This document shows, piece by piece, positions 2,593-21,515 of a DNA stretch of 24,029 nucleotides. Numbering within the stretch: position 1 is the stretch's first letter; every line of letters starts with the position of its first letter. The notes beneath the pieces are model-generated. The model was given only the letters and a program-made list of their open reading frames with translations. It was not told where the DNA came from and searched no databases. Position numbers and translations under genes: made by a program. Origin of the DNA: a virus; the IMG/VR virus record IMGVR_UViG_3300033145_000543, positions 1 to 24,029 of that record; one strand, written 5' to 3'.

Positions 2593-5500
2593 CTATTCTG
2601 GTCTCTGCGGCATAAAATCTATTGTTATACCGTACAGTTCCATTTCAGCGTTTAATAAATCCGATTCAAATTCAAACGCAAACTCGTCCCCTGTCTGCGA
2701 AACATTAACTGCACCCGCCACATTGCTGTAACCAGGGTTCTCAAGGGATATGTCCCCTGCATCCACCCCGGTGCTTTTCCCGTCAGGAAACACCGTCACA
2801 CCCGCCACAGCGTTGTCGGTAATATCAGCCTTTCCTTTTATTTTAATCCTTCTGAGGGTACTTGAATAATTTATCGGGTTGCTGATTAACCCCTGCATCG
2901 GCATTATCGGGGCGGTTTTAAAGTTGTGGGTTATTTTCGTTCCTGAGTCAGAGGTGCCCGTATTAGCCCTGTAGACATGCCCCAAAAAACCACCCACATA
3001 CGTCAGGTACTCGTTTGACGAACCGATAACGTCCAACCCACAGTTCACCGCAGCATCTCTCTGGTAAATATCGTACCATTCGTCCGTCAGGTACGCATAC
3101 ACAAGCTCCCGGTTCAAAACCGACTGGGTGCCGGACCCCGACACGTTCATGGGGACCGCAAAGTGAACTGTTTTTTCTTCATGGTCAATCCAGGCGTAGG
3201 ACGTGTCCATGTACTCCGGTTCGATATACGGGCTTGAAGCGGTGCTAAAATAATCCGCTATGGGGGTGCTGATATTGAACAGGGTGGACCCATCAGTCAT
3301 GTAAACCCCGTCCGCTGCCATGAACACCACGCCCCGTACCTGAGTATCCCTATTAAATAAGGTGACGCCACTGTCGATTGAAATAAGGGTCTTCGGGGCC
3401 ATTGCGCCCACCCGGTCACTCACAAGGTTAGACATGAACACATCCGGTGTGGCGCCATGCAAAAAGAATATCTTGTAAGGGTTCTTTGTGGATACAATGG
3501 CTGAAGTCCCCAACATCGTAATGGCGTTCACTTCCCCGCCACCAAAAATGGGTAATGTTGTCCCGCTGTAGGGGCCGTTCATGATATGAGCGTAACCCTG
3601 CTGGGAATAATCCACTGTCCCTGCGCCGCCTAATCCCGGCCACCACAACGCGTAATTGTTGTAGCTCACCATGCCAACATATTTTTCAAGCGGGTCAGGT
3701 TTCGCGGCATACGATACTTCCCATACCTCAACTTCCGCGTCGAGAGCGTTTGACCAGCTTAACTGATACCAGTAATACGGAACTTTAAGACCACCAAGAA
3801 CCATCTTGATTTCACGAAATGCGTCCCCGTCCCATTGAATCATGCCATTTTGCGCTAAGGAGTCCGTCCCGTTACTGGTTCCATCAACGAGAGTCCCAAC
3901 AGATACCCATGAGTCGCCATCCCAGTATTTCACCGTAACCACGGTCGCGTTGCTGTTCCCCTTTCCCGCAACCATGTAGATATTAATGCCCTGCGCTCTC
4001 TCGACAAACCCGAAATAGACTTCTGATGTATTTGCTAAAGAGTCCAAAGGCATGACGTTCACATCGGTTCCATCGGTAACCTCTGCGCCGTAATCTGCAT
4101 ATCCAGAACCCTCATCCAACAAAACACTGGATGCCAATACGCTGTAACCGGACCACAGATTGGCTATTTCGCTCATATCGTCAGATACGGTGATTTTATA
4201 AACAGTGAGCCCGGAAGACAGGTCCCCGCTCGGGGTAAATTTATACCAATAAAGGTCGTCGCTCGTTCCCAGTAAAACTCGCGGGGTTTCCCCCAAAGGC
4301 CCCGTATCCCATGTCATGCTGCCCGATTGAGCCAAGGTAGCAGAACTGATAGCGGTTCCGTCCGACAAATTCCCAACCGGGTTCCAGGTTGAAGAGGCCC
4401 CTTTCCAATAATAAACGGACATGGACTCCACCGCAGAGTTCGGGGTGCCGCCAATGTAGAAATGAACACCATCCACGGGTCGCCTGAAGATGTATCTTGT
4501 GGTAAGGTTATTCCTGACCTCTGCGTACCCGTCCGTTACATCAAGGCCCGCTGGTGGGACAGCCACGATACTGGTCAAGGTATCGAACTGCACCGTTTCG
4601 CCTAGCGGGGTTGAATTACACCCTAAATAAAGTCTGATAAATGCCGTGGTCGCGGGAGATATCCCTTGCGCGGAATACTGCACCCATTCCCCTACGGTCG
4701 GTTCGTTATTCTGCGTGGACGCGGTTTCAAGAACTGCGCTTGCACCGTCAAGGAATTGCATAACGTGAGACGGGAACGGCCCCCCGGATGTGGTGGCTAT
4801 TTCCACGTCATCAAATTCAACCGTGTTCAGGAAGTCTGCTGAAGGTGCTTTTGCTCCTAGATATAATCTGATGTACGCACACGCTACAGGGGTGATCACG
4901 TTCTCTGAATATTTCGTCCATGTGGACCCCGTAGGGTTGTTCTCCTGTGTATCAAACGTGGATAGAACACTATGCCCAGAATCCAGCGCCTGCATGACGT
5001 GGGACGGGTTGGTCTGTGGGTATGCCTCTGATGTGGGTGCTATTGTTATGTCGTCGAATTCCACGACCTGCCCTACTGCATCCGAATTACTCGCTAAATA
5101 CGCCCTGATGTAGCTTGTATCTACAGGGGTTGTAAACGTATCATCGTATGATGTCCAGGTATTGGTTGATGGATTATGAGTTGTCGATACAGGGGTTGAT
5201 ATCAACGCATTGCCTGAAGTGTATGCCTCTACAGTAATCCCCGCTAGTGGGTTGCCGGACGTTGGTGATGTCCTAACAAAAGTGACATCATCAAATTCCG
5301 TCTCCCTGCTTGCTACTGCTGAGTATGTAGATAAATAAACCCTTACATATGATGTTGTAGAATCTGTTGTAATGGCTAGGCTGTCTTCATCCCACGTTTG
5401 TGTTTCTGGAGCTATTTTTTCTGATGTTGTGTTTACAACAGAATCTCCTGAATTATATTCCACTATCGCAACTGCGGGTTGTTGTTGTGTAAGAACTGAT

Positions 5501-7416
5501 ACGGTGACATTATCAAAAAATATATCCCCGGCACCACCATCGTCATTGCCTAACGTAATCCTAACATAAGAAGTTGTTGAGAGTATGGTAGCACTTATCG
5601 TACATTTTTCCCATGAGGTTGGATAACCCTTAGTCCCGCCAGATGTACTTAGTAAATTATCGCCAGAATCGTATTGCTTAACATACGCAACCACAGTCAT
5701 GTCTGGAGGGGATGTGCTCTGGTAACAATAAAAAGTGAGCGTTAAATAGGAATCCGGTGAAACGCTAACATCTTGATACATATACTTATACTCGCTACCA
5801 CTAGTAGTGACGAGCTTCATGCAATTCCCTGACACTCCTCCATCCGAAAGTGACGGAACCAGTACGTCATCAGGATCATATTCAGTCCAACCGCTTATAT
5901 CCGAATCAAAAGTTCCGTTGGTAACGCTTCCCGTCCCGGTTCTGTTGCGGTATGCCCAATAATTCAATGTGTATCCCGTGCTACCAAGCACATTGAAACG
6001 CTGATACCCACCTGCCGTATAACTGCTAGTCGATGTATTCGTAACCTCCAAATCTTTAGAACCCCCGTGAGGATCGGTGGTCCCGCTTGCGATAGAACCG
6101 TTGGTTGCCGTCCATCCCGTAGTACCTGATTCAAAGTCACCGTTTGTAATGGAATCTCCTATTTCAGTCGTTCTATATGCCCAAGAAGTCAACGTGTATT
6201 CAACATCCGGCTCAACTGTAATATCTTGGTAGACACCAGCTTTAGAGCTTTTTATAGCAGTAGACGTTACCTCAACATCATTTGAACCGCCATGGGGGGA
6301 GGTTGTTCCCGTAACCGCTGTAGCGTCATTCTCAGCCCACCCAGTGGGGGGGGCGGCGCTCCCTGTCTCAAAGTCGCCATTTGTGAACTCAAAAACCTGG
6401 TTTTCCCGATACGCCCAATAGCTTAGAGTGTAACCCGTGGAAGCATTGACAGCGATATCCTGGTAAATGCCCGCGCTTTCGGAGTTTGCCGCCGTGGGTG
6501 TTACTTCAGCATCTTTTAAACCAGCGTGCGGTGAGGTTGTGCCTGAAATAGATGTTGCGTTGCTGTTCGTCCAGCCAGTCGGGGGTGTCCCGCCGGTTTC
6601 AAAGTCGTCATTCGTAATGGAAGAAGTCACAAGGGAATCCCGCCTGGCCCAATAACTGATGGTGTACTCCACCCCCGGGGCCGCCGCAATGTCCTGATAT
6701 ATTCCCGCAGAGGCACTCCCCGCCACCGTTGAGGTCACTTCTACGTCTTTTGACCCACCTTGGGGGGCTGTGGTTCCCGAGACAGCCGTTGCGTTGCTTT
6801 CAGTCCACCCGGTAGGTGGGTCGTTCCCGGTTTCAAAGTCGTCATTCGTAATGCTAATACTGTCAGGGCTTGCGCCCCCTATAACAATCTTAAACCCGTC
6901 AGGGTACGCGAGGCCACCGGACCATGCCATGGGGGCGGTTAGGTCCCCTGCGGCCACAAAGTCGTCACCTACGCTGTCTGAGAACAAATCCCCAGTTCCT
7001 GCTGACAAAGAAACGCTCAATTCCGTCCCGAATGTTGTTCCTGCAGATGGCGGATCATTGAACGCAAGGTATAGTTTATCGTTTGTTTGAGCAATAAAGC
7101 ACCTGGTCCCGAATGTGGGGTTTATATATTGGTGCAAGGTGTCAATGGCCGCCGAGGATATGGCGGTCGAGTTGTTCTTCTCCATGCCCCTTCTGGGGCC
7201 CCAACCAGCGGGGATGCCGGGGGCGGGCCTACGCATGTTCTGCGCTGATACGATTGCACCCTGCTTTAGGAATATAAACGGCGCCACCCGGTTCAGTTTC
7301 TCGGTAAACCCGATACTCTTTGACATAATCGGGCTGTTATTTGGGAACACTCCCGGTTCCTGGGCAACGGCAGGAATGGCAAACAGCAAAACTAGGAGGA
7401 TTAATTTCTTTATCAT
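2593..7416 (-). CDS. Giant tail nozzle/hub protein with nested carbohydrate-binding-like domains
   Basis: 1607 residues; start ATG overlaps the upstream stop (ATGA) with an AGAGGT site. Residues 1-18 form a Sec-type signal peptide (MIKK, hydrophobic core, AVA then Q19). Residues 31-185 and about 955-1607 look like the two parts of a podovirus nozzle/hub: an N-terminal NMRRPAPGIPAGWGPRRG stretch, later beta-propeller-like strands with STKNPYKIFFLHG, RGVVFMAADGVYMTDGS and AYLTDEWYDI. Between them, residues about 188-953 are a domain array of CBM4/9-like jelly-roll character: four opening halves (TNGDFETG...PPTGW...YTLSYWAYR), one complete domain, then four closing halves (VEYNSG...YVRVYL...EFDDV). 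The family's role is closing the tail and holding DNA; the inserted domains would contact host surface sugars. Nozzle assignment rests on motif style and gene order after the adaptors. Confidence 0.72.
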   Translation of the reverse strand: MIKKLILLVLLFAIPAVAQEPGVFPNNSPIMSKSIGFTEKLNRVAPFIFLKQGAIVSAQNMRRPAPGIPAGWGPRRGMEKNNSTAISSAAIDTLHQYINPTFGTRCFIAQTNDKLYLAFNDPPSAGTTFGTELSVSLSAGTGDLFSDSVGDDFVAAGDLTAPMAWSGGLAYPDGFKIVIGGASPDSISITNDDFETGNDPPTGWTESNATAVSGTTAPQGGSKDVEVTSTVAGSASAGIYQDIAAAPGVEYTISYWARRDSLVTSSITNDDFETGGTPPTGWTNSNATSISGTTSPHAGLKDAEVTPTAANSESAGIYQDIAVNASTGYTLSYWAYRENQVFEFTNGDFETGSAAPPTGWAENDATAVTGTTSPHGGSNDVEVTSTAIKSSKAGVYQDITVEPDVEYTLTSWAYRTTEIGDSITNGDFESGTTGWTATNGSIASGTTDPHGGSKDLEVTNTSTSSYTAGGYQRFNVLGSTGYTLNYWAYRNRTGTGSVTNGTFDSDISGWTEYDPDDVLVPSLSDGGVSGNCMKLVTTSGSEYKYMYQDVSVSPDSYLTLTFYCYQSTSPPDMTVVAYVKQYDSGDNLLSTSGGTKGYPTSWEKCTISATILSTTSYVRITLGNDDGGAGDIFFDNVTVSVLTQQQPAVAIVEYNSGDSVVNTTSEKIAPETQTWDEDSLAITTDSTTSYVRVYLSTYSAVASRETEFDDVTFVRTSPTSGNPLAGITVEAYTSGNALISTPVSTTHNPSTNTWTSYDDTFTTPVDTSYIRAYLASNSDAVGQVVEFDDITIAPTSEAYPQTNPSHVMQALDSGHSVLSTFDTQENNPTGSTWTKYSENVITPVACAYIRLYLGAKAPSADFLNTVEFDDVEIATTSGGPFPSHVMQFLDGASAVLETASTQNNEPTVGEWVQYSAQGISPATTAFIRLYLGCNSTPLGETVQFDTLTSIVAVPPAGLDVTDGYAEVRNNLTTRYIFRRPVDGVHFYIGGTPNSAVESMSVYYWKGASSTWNPVGNLSDGTAISSATLAQSGSMTWDTGPLGETPRVLLGTSDDLYWYKFTPSGDLSSGLTVYKITVSDDMSEIANLWSGYSVLASSVLLDEGSGYADYGAEVTDGTDVNVMPLDSLANTSEVYFGFVERAQGINIYMVAGKGNSNATVVTVKYWDGDSWVSVGTLVDGTSNGTDSLAQNGMIQWDGDAFREIKMVLGGLKVPYYWYQLSWSNALDAEVEVWEVSYAAKPDPLEKYVGMVSYNNYALWWPGLGGAGTVDYSQQGYAHIMNGPYSGTTLPIFGGGEVNAITMLGTSAIVSTKNPYKIFFLHGATPDVFMSNLVSDRVGAMAPKTLISIDSGVTLFNRDTQVRGVVFMAADGVYMTDGSTLFNISTPIADYFSTASSPYIEPEYMDTSYAWIDHEEKTVHFAVPMNVSGSGTQSVLNRELVYAYLTDEWYDIYQRDAAVNCGLDVIGSSNEYLTYVGGFLGHVYRANTGTSDSGTKITHNFKTAPIMPMQGLISNPINYSSTLRRIKIKGKADITDNAVAGVTVFPDGKSTGVDAGDISLENPGYSNVAGAVNVSQTGDEFAFEFESDLLNAEMELYGITIDFMPQRPE
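4558..6855 (-). repeat. Nested (Russian-doll) half-domain repeats in the nozzle gene
   Basis: Residues about 188-263, 265-340, 343-418 and 421-493 are four opening halves, 496-642 is one complete domain, and 645-716, 718-795, 797-876 and 877-953 are four closing halves. Opening halves share [ND]GDFE[ST]G, GW, GTT.P..G, Q.I and YTL.YWAYR. Closing halves share W..Y, YIR.YL and [EQ]FD. The two outermost closing halves share PSHVMQ and RLYLG with each other, and the two outermost opening halves share TNDDFETG and PPTGWT, which fits successive self-insertion. Confidence 0.75.
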
Positions 7417-8096
7417 TTCGGTACCTCTGGCGGCACATTGTAAAGCTCTTGTTTCAGAGCATTGAGCCCTAACAGGTACATTTGATATAATTTGTCAGAC
7501 TCGGAATATCGGTGCTCTTTCTTGTAAGCCAGGCTCGCAGCATAAAAATATATGAGGTTCTTATATTCAGGTGGAAGTTCAGCAATCCTTAATGCCAATG
7601 TTGCTCCTGCAGGTTGAGTTGCAAAATAAATTTTAACTGATTGACCGTTCTCGCTGGATGATGGGAGCGGCAGCACCCCGATTTTATCCGCAATATGGAA
7701 ATAATATTTCGGTGGCCCTGCGGTCATAAATGGTAAATCGGCCACTTGGTTAGGGTAAACACGCTTCATGCCGATATATTCATTGTCGGGGCTTATATAG
7801 ATACACCCCCAAACCTTCACGATATCCGTCACTCCTGCCGCCCCATCAGTCACAAGGTCCGTGTATTCAAGTTGCCCTGTTGCCAGAAGAAACGTGTCGG
7901 CGGATTGCAGGACAAGGCCTTTTGCGGCAATGTCGGAAATTCCCTGGTCCAGCCAGTTCTGAATTTGTGCATCACTCCAAAAGCTCGCTACAGGCTCATT
8001 TATTAAGCTCCTGACTTCCGTTACAGAATCGTCCGGCTCAGCCCCAAAACACATAAGTGGGTAAAGCGCCATTAGTACAACAAGAAAAAATTTCAT
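7413..8096 (-). CDS. Adaptor-fold head-to-tail connector protein with N-terminal signal peptide
   Basis: 227 residues, ATG with AGAGGGT ribosome site. Residues 1-19 look like a Sec signal peptide (MKFF, then a hydrophobic core, ending CFGA before E20); the Cys lacks a good lipobox. The mature part has the pattern of phage adaptor proteins: an N-terminal helix pair (EVRSLINEPVASFWSDAQIQ, then NWLDQGISDI), a central beta region with YPNQVADLP, and C-terminal helices (PPEYKNLIYFYAASLAYKK) ending in a long helix. This layout is shared with the gene at 8184-9071, so the two are probably paralogues. It overlaps the nozzle gene by four bases, as expected for an adaptor bound to the nozzle. Adaptors of this type bridge portal and nozzle in short-tailed phages. 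The signal peptide is unexpected because adaptors assemble in the cytoplasm. Confidence 0.7.
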   Translation of the reverse strand: MKFFLVVLMALYPLMCFGAEPDDSVTEVRSLINEPVASFWSDAQIQNWLDQGISDIAAKGLVLQSADTFLLATGQLEYTDLVTDGAAGVTDIVKVWGCIYISPDNEYIGMKRVYPNQVADLPFMTAGPPKYYFHIADKIGVLPLPSSSENGQSVKIYFATQPAGATLALRIAELPPEYKNLIYFYAASLAYKKEHRYSESDKLYQMYLLGLNALKQELYNVPPEVPK

Positions 8097-8183: not shown

Positions 8184-9071
8184 TCACCGGTCGTCGTTGA
8201 CAAACCTTACAGACCCTTGGACTGTCTCTATGGCTGCTTCCAAATCCAGCATGGCTCCTAAAAACAACCCGTGATATCTCTTGGCTTCCAGTTCCATGGG
8301 TTGGTCGTTTTTCGTCTTTCGCTCAAATATCTTCCAGGCGCAGTAGTTCTCCAAAACGCTTTCTTGAAGGTGAACGGGTATCCCAAGCGGTCTGCTTTTC
8401 ACGGTGAACGAACTCCCCGCCGCTTCGTCAGTCGGTGCCGTGGTCACGGTGATATAAGAATAGTCCGTGGCTATAGCGGATATGACGAACGATGTGTTGT
8501 TATTTGTCGTCCCCGTGAAATCCAACGTCTGGCCAACAGAAAAAATACTGAACCCCTTGGCACTGTCCGAAATCCTACTTCCGCTCTCAGCAAACGATAT
8601 GGTAGAAGCGGTATAAGTTTCCATATCCGTTGGCTTTCTGTGGTAGTGGGCCACAAGGGTCTCAGCGCTGGTCGGATATCCTTGGTAGTACAACCTGGCC
8701 CCCCTTACAGCTGCAGCAACTACCCGGTTGGTGTCGTCCAAATTCGGGTATATTCTGAGCAATTCAGTAAAGGACTCATAAAGTTCAATCTCGATATCAT
8801 TTGTCTCGCTCGAAAGAAAGAACAGGTTTCGCCCGTAATCGGACGGCATACTGATATAAGGGTTTGCGACACTCGTTTCTAAACTACTATTCGTGGAAAG
8901 CTCTGGTAGTGGAGAAGAAATAACCTGAGTTTGATCAGGGTACACGACAAGCAACCCGCCGGCGATCTGTCTAACCCCTTGATTAAGGTATTCAAGGATG
9001 CGTGTAGATGTAAACGTTGTGTCCTGAACTATTTCTTTGACACCTTTAATTGATGTTACCTGTTTTGCCAT
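8184..9071 (-). CDS. Adaptor-fold head-to-tail connector protein (no signal peptide)
   Basis: 295 residues from the ATG at 9071 (MAKQVTS), chosen because GAGG lies six bases upstream; a GTG at 9083 would add four residues but has no good site. Residues about 5-45 (IKGVKEIVQDTTFTSTRILE, then YLNQGVRQIAGG) match the opening helices of phage adaptor proteins. The middle has beta strands, with a block around residues 160-215 (GTTNNNTSFVISA and YITVTTAP) that looks like an inserted small beta domain. The C-terminus returns to helix (VLENYCAWKIFERKTKND, then FLGAMLDLEAAIE). Same fold plan as 7413-8096, suggesting duplication with division of labour between a portal-side and nozzle-side ring. An 87-base gap separates it from the next gene. 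Confidence 0.65.
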   Translation of the reverse strand: MAKQVTSIKGVKEIVQDTTFTSTRILEYLNQGVRQIAGGLLVVYPDQTQVISSPLPELSTNSSLETSVANPYISMPSDYGRNLFFLSSETNDIEIELYESFTELLRIYPNLDDTNRVVAAAVRGARLYYQGYPTSAETLVAHYHRKPTDMETYTASTISFAESGSRISDSAKGFSIFSVGQTLDFTGTTNNNTSFVISAIATDYSYITVTTAPTDEAAGSSFTVKSRPLGIPVHLQESVLENYCAWKIFERKTKNDQPMELEAKRYHGLFLGAMLDLEAAIETVQGSVRFVNDDR

Positions 9072-9083
9072 AGGGTTCCTCAC

Positions 9084-9260
9084 TTAGTAATAGTAATAGT
9101 AGTAGTAGCAACATGAGGAGTCGCAGGCGAGTTTCGCTGTGGAGGTAGGTAGGTATTCAGCCTCACTCCCCCGTTGACTTCCATTTTTGCCCCTGGAGCC
9201 GTCTTCCGCGTAGGCTATAGCAGCAAAACACGCAATTATCAGAAAGATAAATTTCTTCAT
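9084..9260 (-). CDS. Small putative secreted protein with poly-tyrosine tail
   Basis: 58 residues. The ATG at 9260 overlaps the stop of the upstream gene (ATGA), so translation is probably coupled. Residues 1-18 are a convincing Sec signal peptide (MKKF, hydrophobic core FLIIACFAAIA, AYA before E19). The short mature part is Ser/Gly-rich and hydrophilic, then CDSSCC and seven consecutive tyrosines before TAA. The tyrosines come from a TAC/TAT run and may reflect slippage. Function unknown. It sits between a small beta protein and an adaptor gene, so a virion-associated or lysis-related role is possible; it is too short to be an enzyme. Coupling and a clean signal peptide argue that it is a real gene. 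Confidence 0.6.
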   Translation of the reverse strand: MKKFIFLIIACFAAIAYAEDGSRGKNGSQRGSEAEYLPTSTAKLACDSSCCYYYYYYY

Positions 9261-15019: not shown

Positions 15020-15187
15020 CTATTTTTCGCGTTTTACAGAGGCTTCCTTCCTGATTTTAAACCCCGAAACCGTTCCGTTCGCAATGTCGAGAATTGGGGT
15101 TATCCTCCCGGTCACCTTCCCTTTGCTGAATTCGTCCAAGTGATCTCCGATATTCTTTAGCACCCACGCTTTTGAATACCCCTTCAT
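15020..15187 (-). CDS. Small 55-residue protein downstream of the GroES-like gene
   Basis: Starts at the ATG at 15187 (MKGYSKAW), with an AGG five bases upstream; an in-frame ATG one codon earlier overlaps the GroES-like TGA. The protein is basic with a helix (YSKAWVLKNIGDHLDEFSKG) followed by strands (KVTGRITPILDIANGTVSGF). It lies between the co-chaperonin gene and a terminator, so it is the last gene of that transcript. No family recognised. Tight overlap and normal codon use support it as real. Confidence 0.55.
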   Translation of the reverse strand: MKGYSKAWVLKNIGDHLDEFSKGKVTGRITPILDIANGTVSGFKIRKEASVKREK

Positions 15188-15474
15188 CATATCCTCGCCT
15201 GGATATCAATGTCGTTCACGATTCTGACATCCACCCCGTCATCACCCGTGACGAACACCCCGCTATGTTTGGCGTGAATCACTTCATCCCCCACCTTTAA
15301 CGGGCCATCATCGAACTCGACTGCAGCAGCAGGGCCTATGGCCAAGACTTTCCCCATGACGGCAGTGAACTTGGCCGCCTCCTGCACGGAATCCGGGACG
15401 TAAATCCCCCCTTCCGTTTTCTTCTCCACCTCTTTAGGCAGAATCAAAACCTTTACCCCTTCGGGTTTAATCAT
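15187..15474 (-). CDS. Phage-encoded GroES-like co-chaperonin (Cpn10 family)
   Basis: 95 residues, the normal length for GroES; ATG overlaps the upstream stop (ATGATTAA) with GGGGAGGAAGACG as ribosome site. Core family features are in order: strand VKVLILPKEVEKKTEGGIYV with the mobile loop at about 17-33 carrying G-G-I-Y-V in place of the usual GGIVL, then MGKVLAIGP (40-48), LKVGDEVIHAKHSG (59-72) and the closing strand VNDIDIQARI (86-95). GroES caps the GroEL ring through its mobile loop hydrophobic triplet. T4 gp31 and related proteins replace host GroES to fold phage capsid protein. Its place between portal and scaffold genes fits a role in folding the capsid or portal subunit. The IYV triplet could tune GroEL affinity. 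A host-derived housekeeping copy is unlikely because no groEL follows. Confidence 0.88.
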   Translation of the reverse strand: MIKPEGVKVLILPKEVEKKTEGGIYVPDSVQEAAKFTAVMGKVLAIGPAAAVEFDDGPLKVGDEVIHAKHSGVFVTGDDGVDVRIVNDIDIQARI

Positions 15475-20756: not shown

Positions 20757-21515
20757 TTACCATTTATAGGCATAACATTCAGCAGGACATTCACCAATAT
20801 AATTTAAGAAAGCAGAAACAGAATAAGCTGATATATTAATAATATTACGAGACGGTTGCCTTGTTGATTTAAACCCTAAATTTTGAAGTTTATTAATTAA
20901 TCTATTAACGTCAATAATCGTAAATCCATTGGTGCATAACTTAATATTAGCCTTACCATTGGGGCCATAATATTGGATGCAACCATCACCCATATACCAC
21001 TGCCTACAAGTAAGAGGGTTTAATTTTATTCCTTTTGGAACTATTTTTTTATCAAAGGGGTACCATTTTTTTCTGATCGGCAAAAGTTCTATATAATGCT
21101 TTGAAATATAGCTATAGCTTGTATTCCCCCAATCTTTATGATGTTCTATAAGAATATTGCCGGTTTGTTTTATGCCGAAGGATAACAAAGTGTCTGATAC
21201 ATATTTAATATACTCTTTGTGCTTTGAACTATAAGAAAAACAAGCAGAATATTTACTCTGAGATTTGATGCAACCATCGCCTAATAGTTCTCCATTAATC
21301 CATTCAATTGCTTTTTTAGATAAATCGCAATGATTGCATGTTCTTATGTGACGACCTACTGAACTTGACCTTGCAGGGATACCAAAACGTTTTAACCATT
21401 TACCTACAGTCCCTTTTCCAACATCAAGTTTTTGTGCAATTTGGCTTAATGACAATTTATCGTTTTGGTACATCTGGATTAATTGTTCTTCTTTGTTTTT
21501 GTATTTTGCTTTCAT
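20757..21515 (-). CDS. LAGLIDADG homing endonuclease with N-terminal helix-turn-helix
   Basis: 252 residues. Residues about 8-47 form a helix-turn-helix like those of resolvases (LSLSQIAQKLDVGKGTVGKW). Residues 60-63 (CNHC) may bind zinc. The first LAGLIDADG motif is WINGELLGDG (72-81, acidic D80); the second is LTCRQWYMGDG (168-178, acidic D177). Both acidic residues and the helical packing glycines are present, so the enzyme is likely active as a monomer. Such proteins cut intron-lacking or element-lacking alleles to spread their gene. It is much more AT-rich than its neighbours, a sign of transfer. It begins 48 bases after a recombinase fragment. No intron structure or split host gene is apparent, so it looks like a free-standing element. 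Confidence 0.85.
   Translation of the reverse strand: MKAKYKNKEEQLIQMYQNDKLSLSQIAQKLDVGKGTVGKWLKRFGIPARSSSVGRHIRTCNHCDLSKKAIEWINGELLGDGCIKSQSKYSACFSYSSKHKEYIKYVSDTLLSFGIKQTGNILIEHHKDWGNTSYSYISKHYIELLPIRKKWYPFDKKIVPKGIKLNPLTCRQWYMGDGCIQYYGPNGKANIKLCTNGFTIIDVNRLINKLQNLGFKSTRQPSRNIINISAYSVSAFLNYIGECPAECYAYKW

Follow-up and report, generated by a model that had tools for sequence, protein, structure and literature searches.

A probable concentric nest of CBM_4_9-type domains in the putative tail nozzle protein of an uncultured podovirus

How a single polypeptide comes to carry four N-terminal halves of a domain in a row, followed by one complete copy and then by four C-terminal halves, is the question raised by a 1607-residue ORF of an uncultured, short-tailed phage (podovirus). 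The ORF lies in the 24,029-nt stretch of DNA analyzed here (positions 1 to 24,029 of IMG/VR record IMGVR_UViG_3300033145_000543; hereafter, the window). The initial annotation, referring to positions 4558-6855 of the minus strand, which correspond to residues 188-953 of the ORF, had described four opening halves, one complete domain and four closing halves, and had proposed that a domain was repeatedly inserted into the same loop of its predecessor, yielding the order 1(2(3(4(5)4)3)2)1. Searches with Pfam and with profiles built from the halves bore out this succession of halves. Residues 188-955 (768 residues) consist of nine pieces, O1 O2 O3 O4 D5 C4 C3 C2 C1, which begin at residues 188, 266, 342, 422, 497, 647, 722, 803 and 881 and end at residue 955. 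The features concerned are listed below; L071 and L080 denote two viral homologues that are described further on.

2593-7416, minus strand: host ORF of the nest (1607 residues), a putative tail nozzle / head-closure protein with a signal-peptide-like N terminus
6856-7416, minus strand: part of the host protein before the nest (residues 1-187), homologous to the N-terminal part of the L080 protein (E 1e-23)
6622-6855, minus strand: O1, N-terminal half of shell domain 1 (residues 188-265); CBM_4_9 positions 4-76; L071 orthologue 77%
6394-6621, minus strand: O2, N-terminal half of shell domain 2 (residues 266-341); CBM_4_9 positions 3-76; L071 orthologue 82%
6154-6393, minus strand: O3, N-terminal half of shell domain 3 (residues 342-421); CBM_4_9 positions 5-73; L071 O3 61%
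5929-6153, minus strand: O4, N-terminal half of shell domain 4 (residues 422-496); CBM_4_9 positions 2-70; no separate level in L071
5479-5928, minus strand: D5, complete central CBM_4_9-like domain (residues 497-646); CBM_4_9 positions 3-128
5254-5478, minus strand: C4, C-terminal half of shell domain 4 (residues 647-721); found with the closer HMM; no L071 equivalent
5011-5253, minus strand: C3, C-terminal half of shell domain 3 (residues 722-802); L071 orthologue 71%, versus 39% for C4
4777-5010, minus strand: C2, C-terminal half of shell domain 2 (residues 803-880); L071 orthologue 78%
4552-4776, minus strand: C1, C-terminal half of shell domain 1 (residues 881-955); L071 orthologue 88%; O1 and C1 together match GTA_spike_fiber
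2593-4551, minus strand: part of the host protein after the nest (residues 956-1607), homologous to L080 (E 4e-147)
7413-8096, minus strand: adjacent gene of the SU10_adaptor family (PF24175, E 6e-9)

The Pfam family CBM_4_9 (PF02018, 136 positions) matched the four openers over positions 2-76 of the model only, with scores of 23-28 bits, and D5 over positions 3-128 with 27.5 bits (cut-off, 25.9). That openers alone score near or above this cut-off, and that neither C4 nor C1 alone was assigned to any Pfam family, might be taken to mean that the openers are full small domains and the closers a domain of another type, their order being coincidental. We regard this reading as very improbable, for D5 contradicts it. 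Half HMMs made from the shell halves only, D5 being left out, and run against a background of ~1650 ORFs both hit D5, the opener HMM at its residues 1-72 (E 1.8e-7) and the closer HMM at residues 83-144 (E 2.2e-7). As D5 carries an opener-like and a closer-like part separately, and contiguously, openers and closers are two halves of the same domain. D5 also gave weak but full-length matches to contiguous domains of other phages' virion proteins. Moreover, abutting in silico the opener and the closer of one level stretched the family matches across the model, with near full-length family matches for six of the seven levels of the window and L071. At levels 1-3 of both viruses, the abutted halves matched CBM_4_9 with 26.8-61.4 bits and reached positions 115-131 of 136, the best score (61 bits) being that of level 3 of L071; in the control, where O1 was joined to another, unrelated part of the protein, the match ended at position 80. 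Abutted O4 and C4 yielded no CBM_4_9 match, and level 4 thus rests on the half profiles and on position. With the NCBIfam model GTA_spike_fiber, O1 and C1 scored 38.8 bits over positions 18-148 of 182 when abutted (cut-off, 36), while O2 alone reached 22.5 bits over positions 18-76 and the uncut protein also stayed below the cut-off. In sequence family, D5 and the shell halves resemble CBM_4_9 and the NCBIfam models GTA_spike_fiber and NTTRR-F1, yet all three models describe a contiguous domain, whereas four of the five copies in the nest are split by the next level. For annotation, such splitting produces a class of false 'partial domain' hits, namely N-terminal halves that look orphaned but find their completion hundreds of residues further on. 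Matches to Hemolysin_N (obtained with the central segment X of L071), PFU and MAM were rejected as chance.

The break in each of the shell domains falls into the same loop, the one behind the YWAYR strand, and the interruptions of levels 1-4 measure 150 to about 615 residues; D5 alone is contiguous. Similarity among the halves of the nest lies far above chance, at ~92-131 bits each with profiles built from the same set and so not independent. As had been read from the sequence at the outset, O1/O2 and C1/C2 are the closest pairs of their respective arms (67% and 45%), and level 5 is the most divergent. The units are spaced nearly constantly, at ~234 bp, which also fits a rival account in which half-units of ~234 bp underwent tandem duplication, openers apart from closers, and in which the halves pair otherwise, in opener-opener sheets or with swapped neighbours; domain swapping has indeed been reported among recursively inserted HABAS domains (PMC11515920). 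We consider this account unlikely. The family profiles place the opener in the first half of the domain only, and openers and closers are equal in number in both genomes (4/4 in the window and 3/3 in L071, the centre excluded). The comparison of the two nests bears on it further.

L071 (IMGVR_UViG_3300007775_000018 of IMG/VR) has the same gene neighbours as the window and encodes a protein 71% identical over its whole length to that of the window. Its nest reads O1 O2 O3 X C3 C2 C1. Each of O1, O2, C1, C2 and C3 is more similar to its orthologue in the window (77%, 82%, 88%, 78% and 71%, respectively) than to any other level, while O3 of L071 is ambiguous, with 61% to O3 and 59% to O4 of the window. 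X, a segment of ~178 residues (residues 416-593; L071 positions 8688-9221), takes exactly the place of O4-D5-C4 of the window, behind the same level-3 strand; searches of Pfam, PHROGs, PDB sequences and phage records gave no significant match to it. Between these two nested states, a whole concentric unit was added, removed or replaced, in the centre as well as in each arm, the polarity of the change being uncertain. Since the inner unit changed on both arms at once, as is predicted by nesting and not by independent duplication of halves, nesting is favoured; the separate multiplication of half-units sits ill with an inner end altered in both arms at the same time as the centre was replaced. 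All halves are under purifying selection between the window and L071 (dN 0.10-0.32; dS 1.6-3.0 or saturated). An origin of L071 O3 by recombination (5′ part like O4 of the window, 3′ part like O3) looked clear in DNA windows but was not significant on informative amino-acid sites (p=0.12), and is therefore not proposed.

In L080, a distant homologue (E 4e-147 over the body of the protein), the flanks of the nest are joined by a short ungapped stretch, YPDAFLVKHETGTTLYVDGWDRV, at the site where the window reads YPDGFKIVIGGASPDS-(nest)-GLDVTDGYAEV. The known states of the nest are therefore 0 (L080), 3 plus X (L071) and 5 (window), and it is mainly through L071, with the same outer three layers around another centre, and L080, with its uninterrupted site, that the order 1(2(3(4(5)4)3)2)1 finds support. 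We conclude that a podovirus tail protein of the nozzle type very probably bears, inserted at a single site, CBM_4_9-type beta-sandwich domains in a concentric stack; growth and change of the nest appear to proceed from the centre. The comparison of nested states involves a single pair, the window and L071, together with one nest-free homologue. Searches of viral contigs (with whole-protein, opener, nozzle-body and adjacent-opener patterns), genome contigs and 50,697 phage records retrieved only L071, present in two data sets, and the nest-free L080; among 45 contigs with the adjacent-opener DNA pattern 'WA...NG[DN]FE', the matched stretches held no further opener array, and no homologue of the host protein was detectable in the major-capsid relatives L007-L070.

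That the window is a single 24-kb virus contig leaves room for an assembly or collapse artefact of a repetitive region, a suspicion that we find scarcely credible. The shell openers are 53-63% identical in DNA, and the closers less, which is too diverged to collapse; the ORF is intact; and L071 displays the same outer architecture in a sequence that was recovered from a second data set with 99.99% identity.

Two local differences between the homologues were noted apart from the nest proper. Just past it, near residue 976 (window ~4485-4490), 13 residues of L071, PYPASTFDPVYVG, are missing from the window, and L080 has residues there too. Elsewhere in its N-terminal part, L080 carries one contiguous segment (~7036-7518) that looks CBM-like by eye and breaks the alignment to the window protein; it had no family match.

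The two arms of the nest differ in their divergence. Across levels, openers are far more alike than closers (e.g. 59% for O1/O3 versus 25% for C1/C3), although, between orthologues, the closers have evolved no faster than the openers. Paralogue distance divided by orthologue distance gives 2.0 for openers (95% interval, 1.5-2.6) and 5.0 for closers (3.7-7.4), the bootstrap intervals of the two not overlapping. As whole-domain copying would be expected to give equal ratios, simple copying without later exchange is insufficient. The unequal depths, and the sequence that openers seem to trade among themselves, are points in favour of half-units having multiplied separately. Exact tracts were looked for in ~26 pairs, and O1 and O2 of the window share the following:

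6827-6853, no strand: tract of 27 nt at the start of O1 that recurs unchanged in O2, again at the start (positions 6593-6619); likely due to conversion

This tract encodes ITNDDFETG and has p=0.001 against reshuffled synonymous codons. O1 and O2 of L071 share a different, 20-nt exact tract (p=0.003), which is only suggestive after correction for the number of pairs. No closer pair has an exact tract of at least 14 nt in common, which counts against a separate multiplication of half-units. Returning to the nested reading, the likeness of the openers is likely explained by gene conversion among neighbouring openers, and not closers, and tracts that differ from one virus to the other suggest that such conversion is ongoing in the opener array; a further contribution to the difference between the arms may come from invariant sites being distributed differently in each half. 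The proposal of repeated insertion of the same domain is supported as to the nested order but not shown in its original form, given the arm depths of 2.0 and 5.0 and given that neither D5 nor X is a recent copy of a shell.

Trees of the two arms, which had been expected to mirror each other under nesting, did so weakly. Across five levels, the opener and closer distance matrices correlated modestly in the nested pairing (r 0.56-0.67), but this pairing ranked only 5th-6th of 120, and the crossed pairing (O1 with C4) was not much worse. In the closer tree, a supported group (96/100) unites C1 and C2 of both viruses; in the opener tree, O1 and O2 pair with their own orthologues (95/92 and 91/96), the inner branching of the openers not being resolved. 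AlphaFold2 returned a mean pLDDT of 27 for residues 179-960 from a two-row alignment (window and L071), other phage CBM domains having been left out because MAFFT misaligned them, and a mean pLDDT of 32 for the nest-free homologue L080 from three rows, both values being too low for use.

The identity of the host protein was approached through its neighbourhood. In the window, genes follow the order TerL-portal-capsid-adaptor, then the ORF carrying the nest, which fills the slot next to the adaptor gene as does the nozzle of podoviruses (SU10 gp17 / P22 gp10, Hc3). L047 and L067, two syntenic relatives, have in this slot an ORF with a match to PHROG 578 ('head closure Hc3'). From this gene order, the host protein is a putative protein of the tail nozzle / head-closure type. 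The name 'tail nozzle' given by the initial annotation thus agrees with the position beside a SU10_adaptor-family gene and with PHROG 578 in the relatives' slot, but no profile identifies the protein directly: profile searches assigned nothing outside the CBM region directly to a family, the PHROG 578 proteins were matched only over short stretches, below threshold and without significance, no sequence similarity to SU10 gp17 was detected, and sequence comparison with the SU10 adaptor gave nothing. Right behind the nest, the protein contains a tandem pair of related modules (window ~3690-4551, residues 956-1240; 31% identity, E 4e-16).

In each of the three lineages, the N termini of the putative nozzle and adaptor proteins resemble canonical Sec signal peptides, e.g. 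MIKKLILLVLLFAIPAVAQ (window 2593-7416 and 7413-8096; L071 6769 and 7443; L080 3096 and 6649), as scored by a simple home-made score rather than a signal-peptide predictor. Further tail-region ORFs of L071, L080 and L012 also start in this manner. Such N termini are unusual in virion proteins assembled in the cytoplasm.

In the arrangement that we propose, the next level would break into each shell domain at the same loop, the innermost domain (D5, or the unrelated X in L071) being uninterrupted, and each opener would fold with its mirror closer. Each domain would then hang by two linkers from a loop of the previous one with both chain ends at the base, so that mirror folding gives an unbranched stalk and not the branched one initially imagined: up to five beads on double linkers, both ends anchored in the nozzle. 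By analogy with the hexamer of SU10, we assume probably six copies per virion. The tip domain, D5 or X, would be the most exposed and exchangeable part. During adsorption, the stalk may make contact with glycans of the host surface, the centre being its variable tip; carbohydrate binding by the nest domains is suggested by family names and resemblance. Evolution may have proceeded by whole-domain insertion at the innermost loop, together with gene conversion keeping the openers alike. We are evenly divided on the fuller picture, an adsorption stalk growing by recursive self-insertion whose newest, exchangeable lectin-like tip is outermost in space and innermost in sequence, while conversion maintains the likeness of the openers.

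Inserted domains have precedents in tail proteins. The nozzle protein gp17 of SU10 is a hexamer in which four Ig-like domains form an insertion between blades 2 and 3 of the propeller (PMC9509320), and a long inserted stalk in the window protein is thus plausible. Gp17 of Kuravirus SU10 and gp12 of T7 would share with the putative nozzle of the window the character of beta-rich tail proteins, with extra domains inserted into a beta-propeller (PMC9509320, PMC6702177); SU10 gp17 differs in that nested CBM-type domains are not described in the SU10 text consulted (PMC9509320). The closest parallel in kind is Si3 of the cyanobacterial RNA polymerase beta-prime subunit, where HABAS / sandwich-barrel hybrid motif domains are inserted into each other up to six levels deep, in a nest that branches (some hosts bearing several insertions), that is partly domain-swapped and that is described as fixed early in bacterial evolution (PMC13114784, PMC11515920). 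Both systems have same-family domains recursively inserted, and the order, the identity of the halves and the comparison with L071 and L080 likewise place a family member repeatedly inside another's loop in the phage protein. Si3 differs in its fold and protein, its branching and its swapping, whereas the phage nest is strictly concentric, has five levels and has a relative with another centre. Recursive same-family insertion is already known from Si3, of which the concentric five-level nest in a phage tail would be a variant; no viral case was found among the open-access papers inspected. Nests this deep, made by recursive insertion within one domain family, are rare; here one occurs in a viral tail protein that evolves fast and whose relatives show other states of the nest, so that the order of growth (centre last) becomes readable and testable. 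The architecture also suggests a way in which a long stalk can arise from the middle of a protein when both ends have to come back to one core, and a means for a phage to swap its tip domain with the base undisturbed. If true, a stalk of this kind would be a viral counterpart of the Si3 nest, caught in the states 0, 3 plus X, and 5.

Two further ORFs of the window, both on the minus strand, were recognized by eye: one (20757-21515), near the terminase gene, resembles a homing endonuclease with an N-terminal helix-turn-helix, and the other (15187-15474; 95 residues), between the portal and the scaffold-region genes, resembles a GroES-type co-chaperonin.
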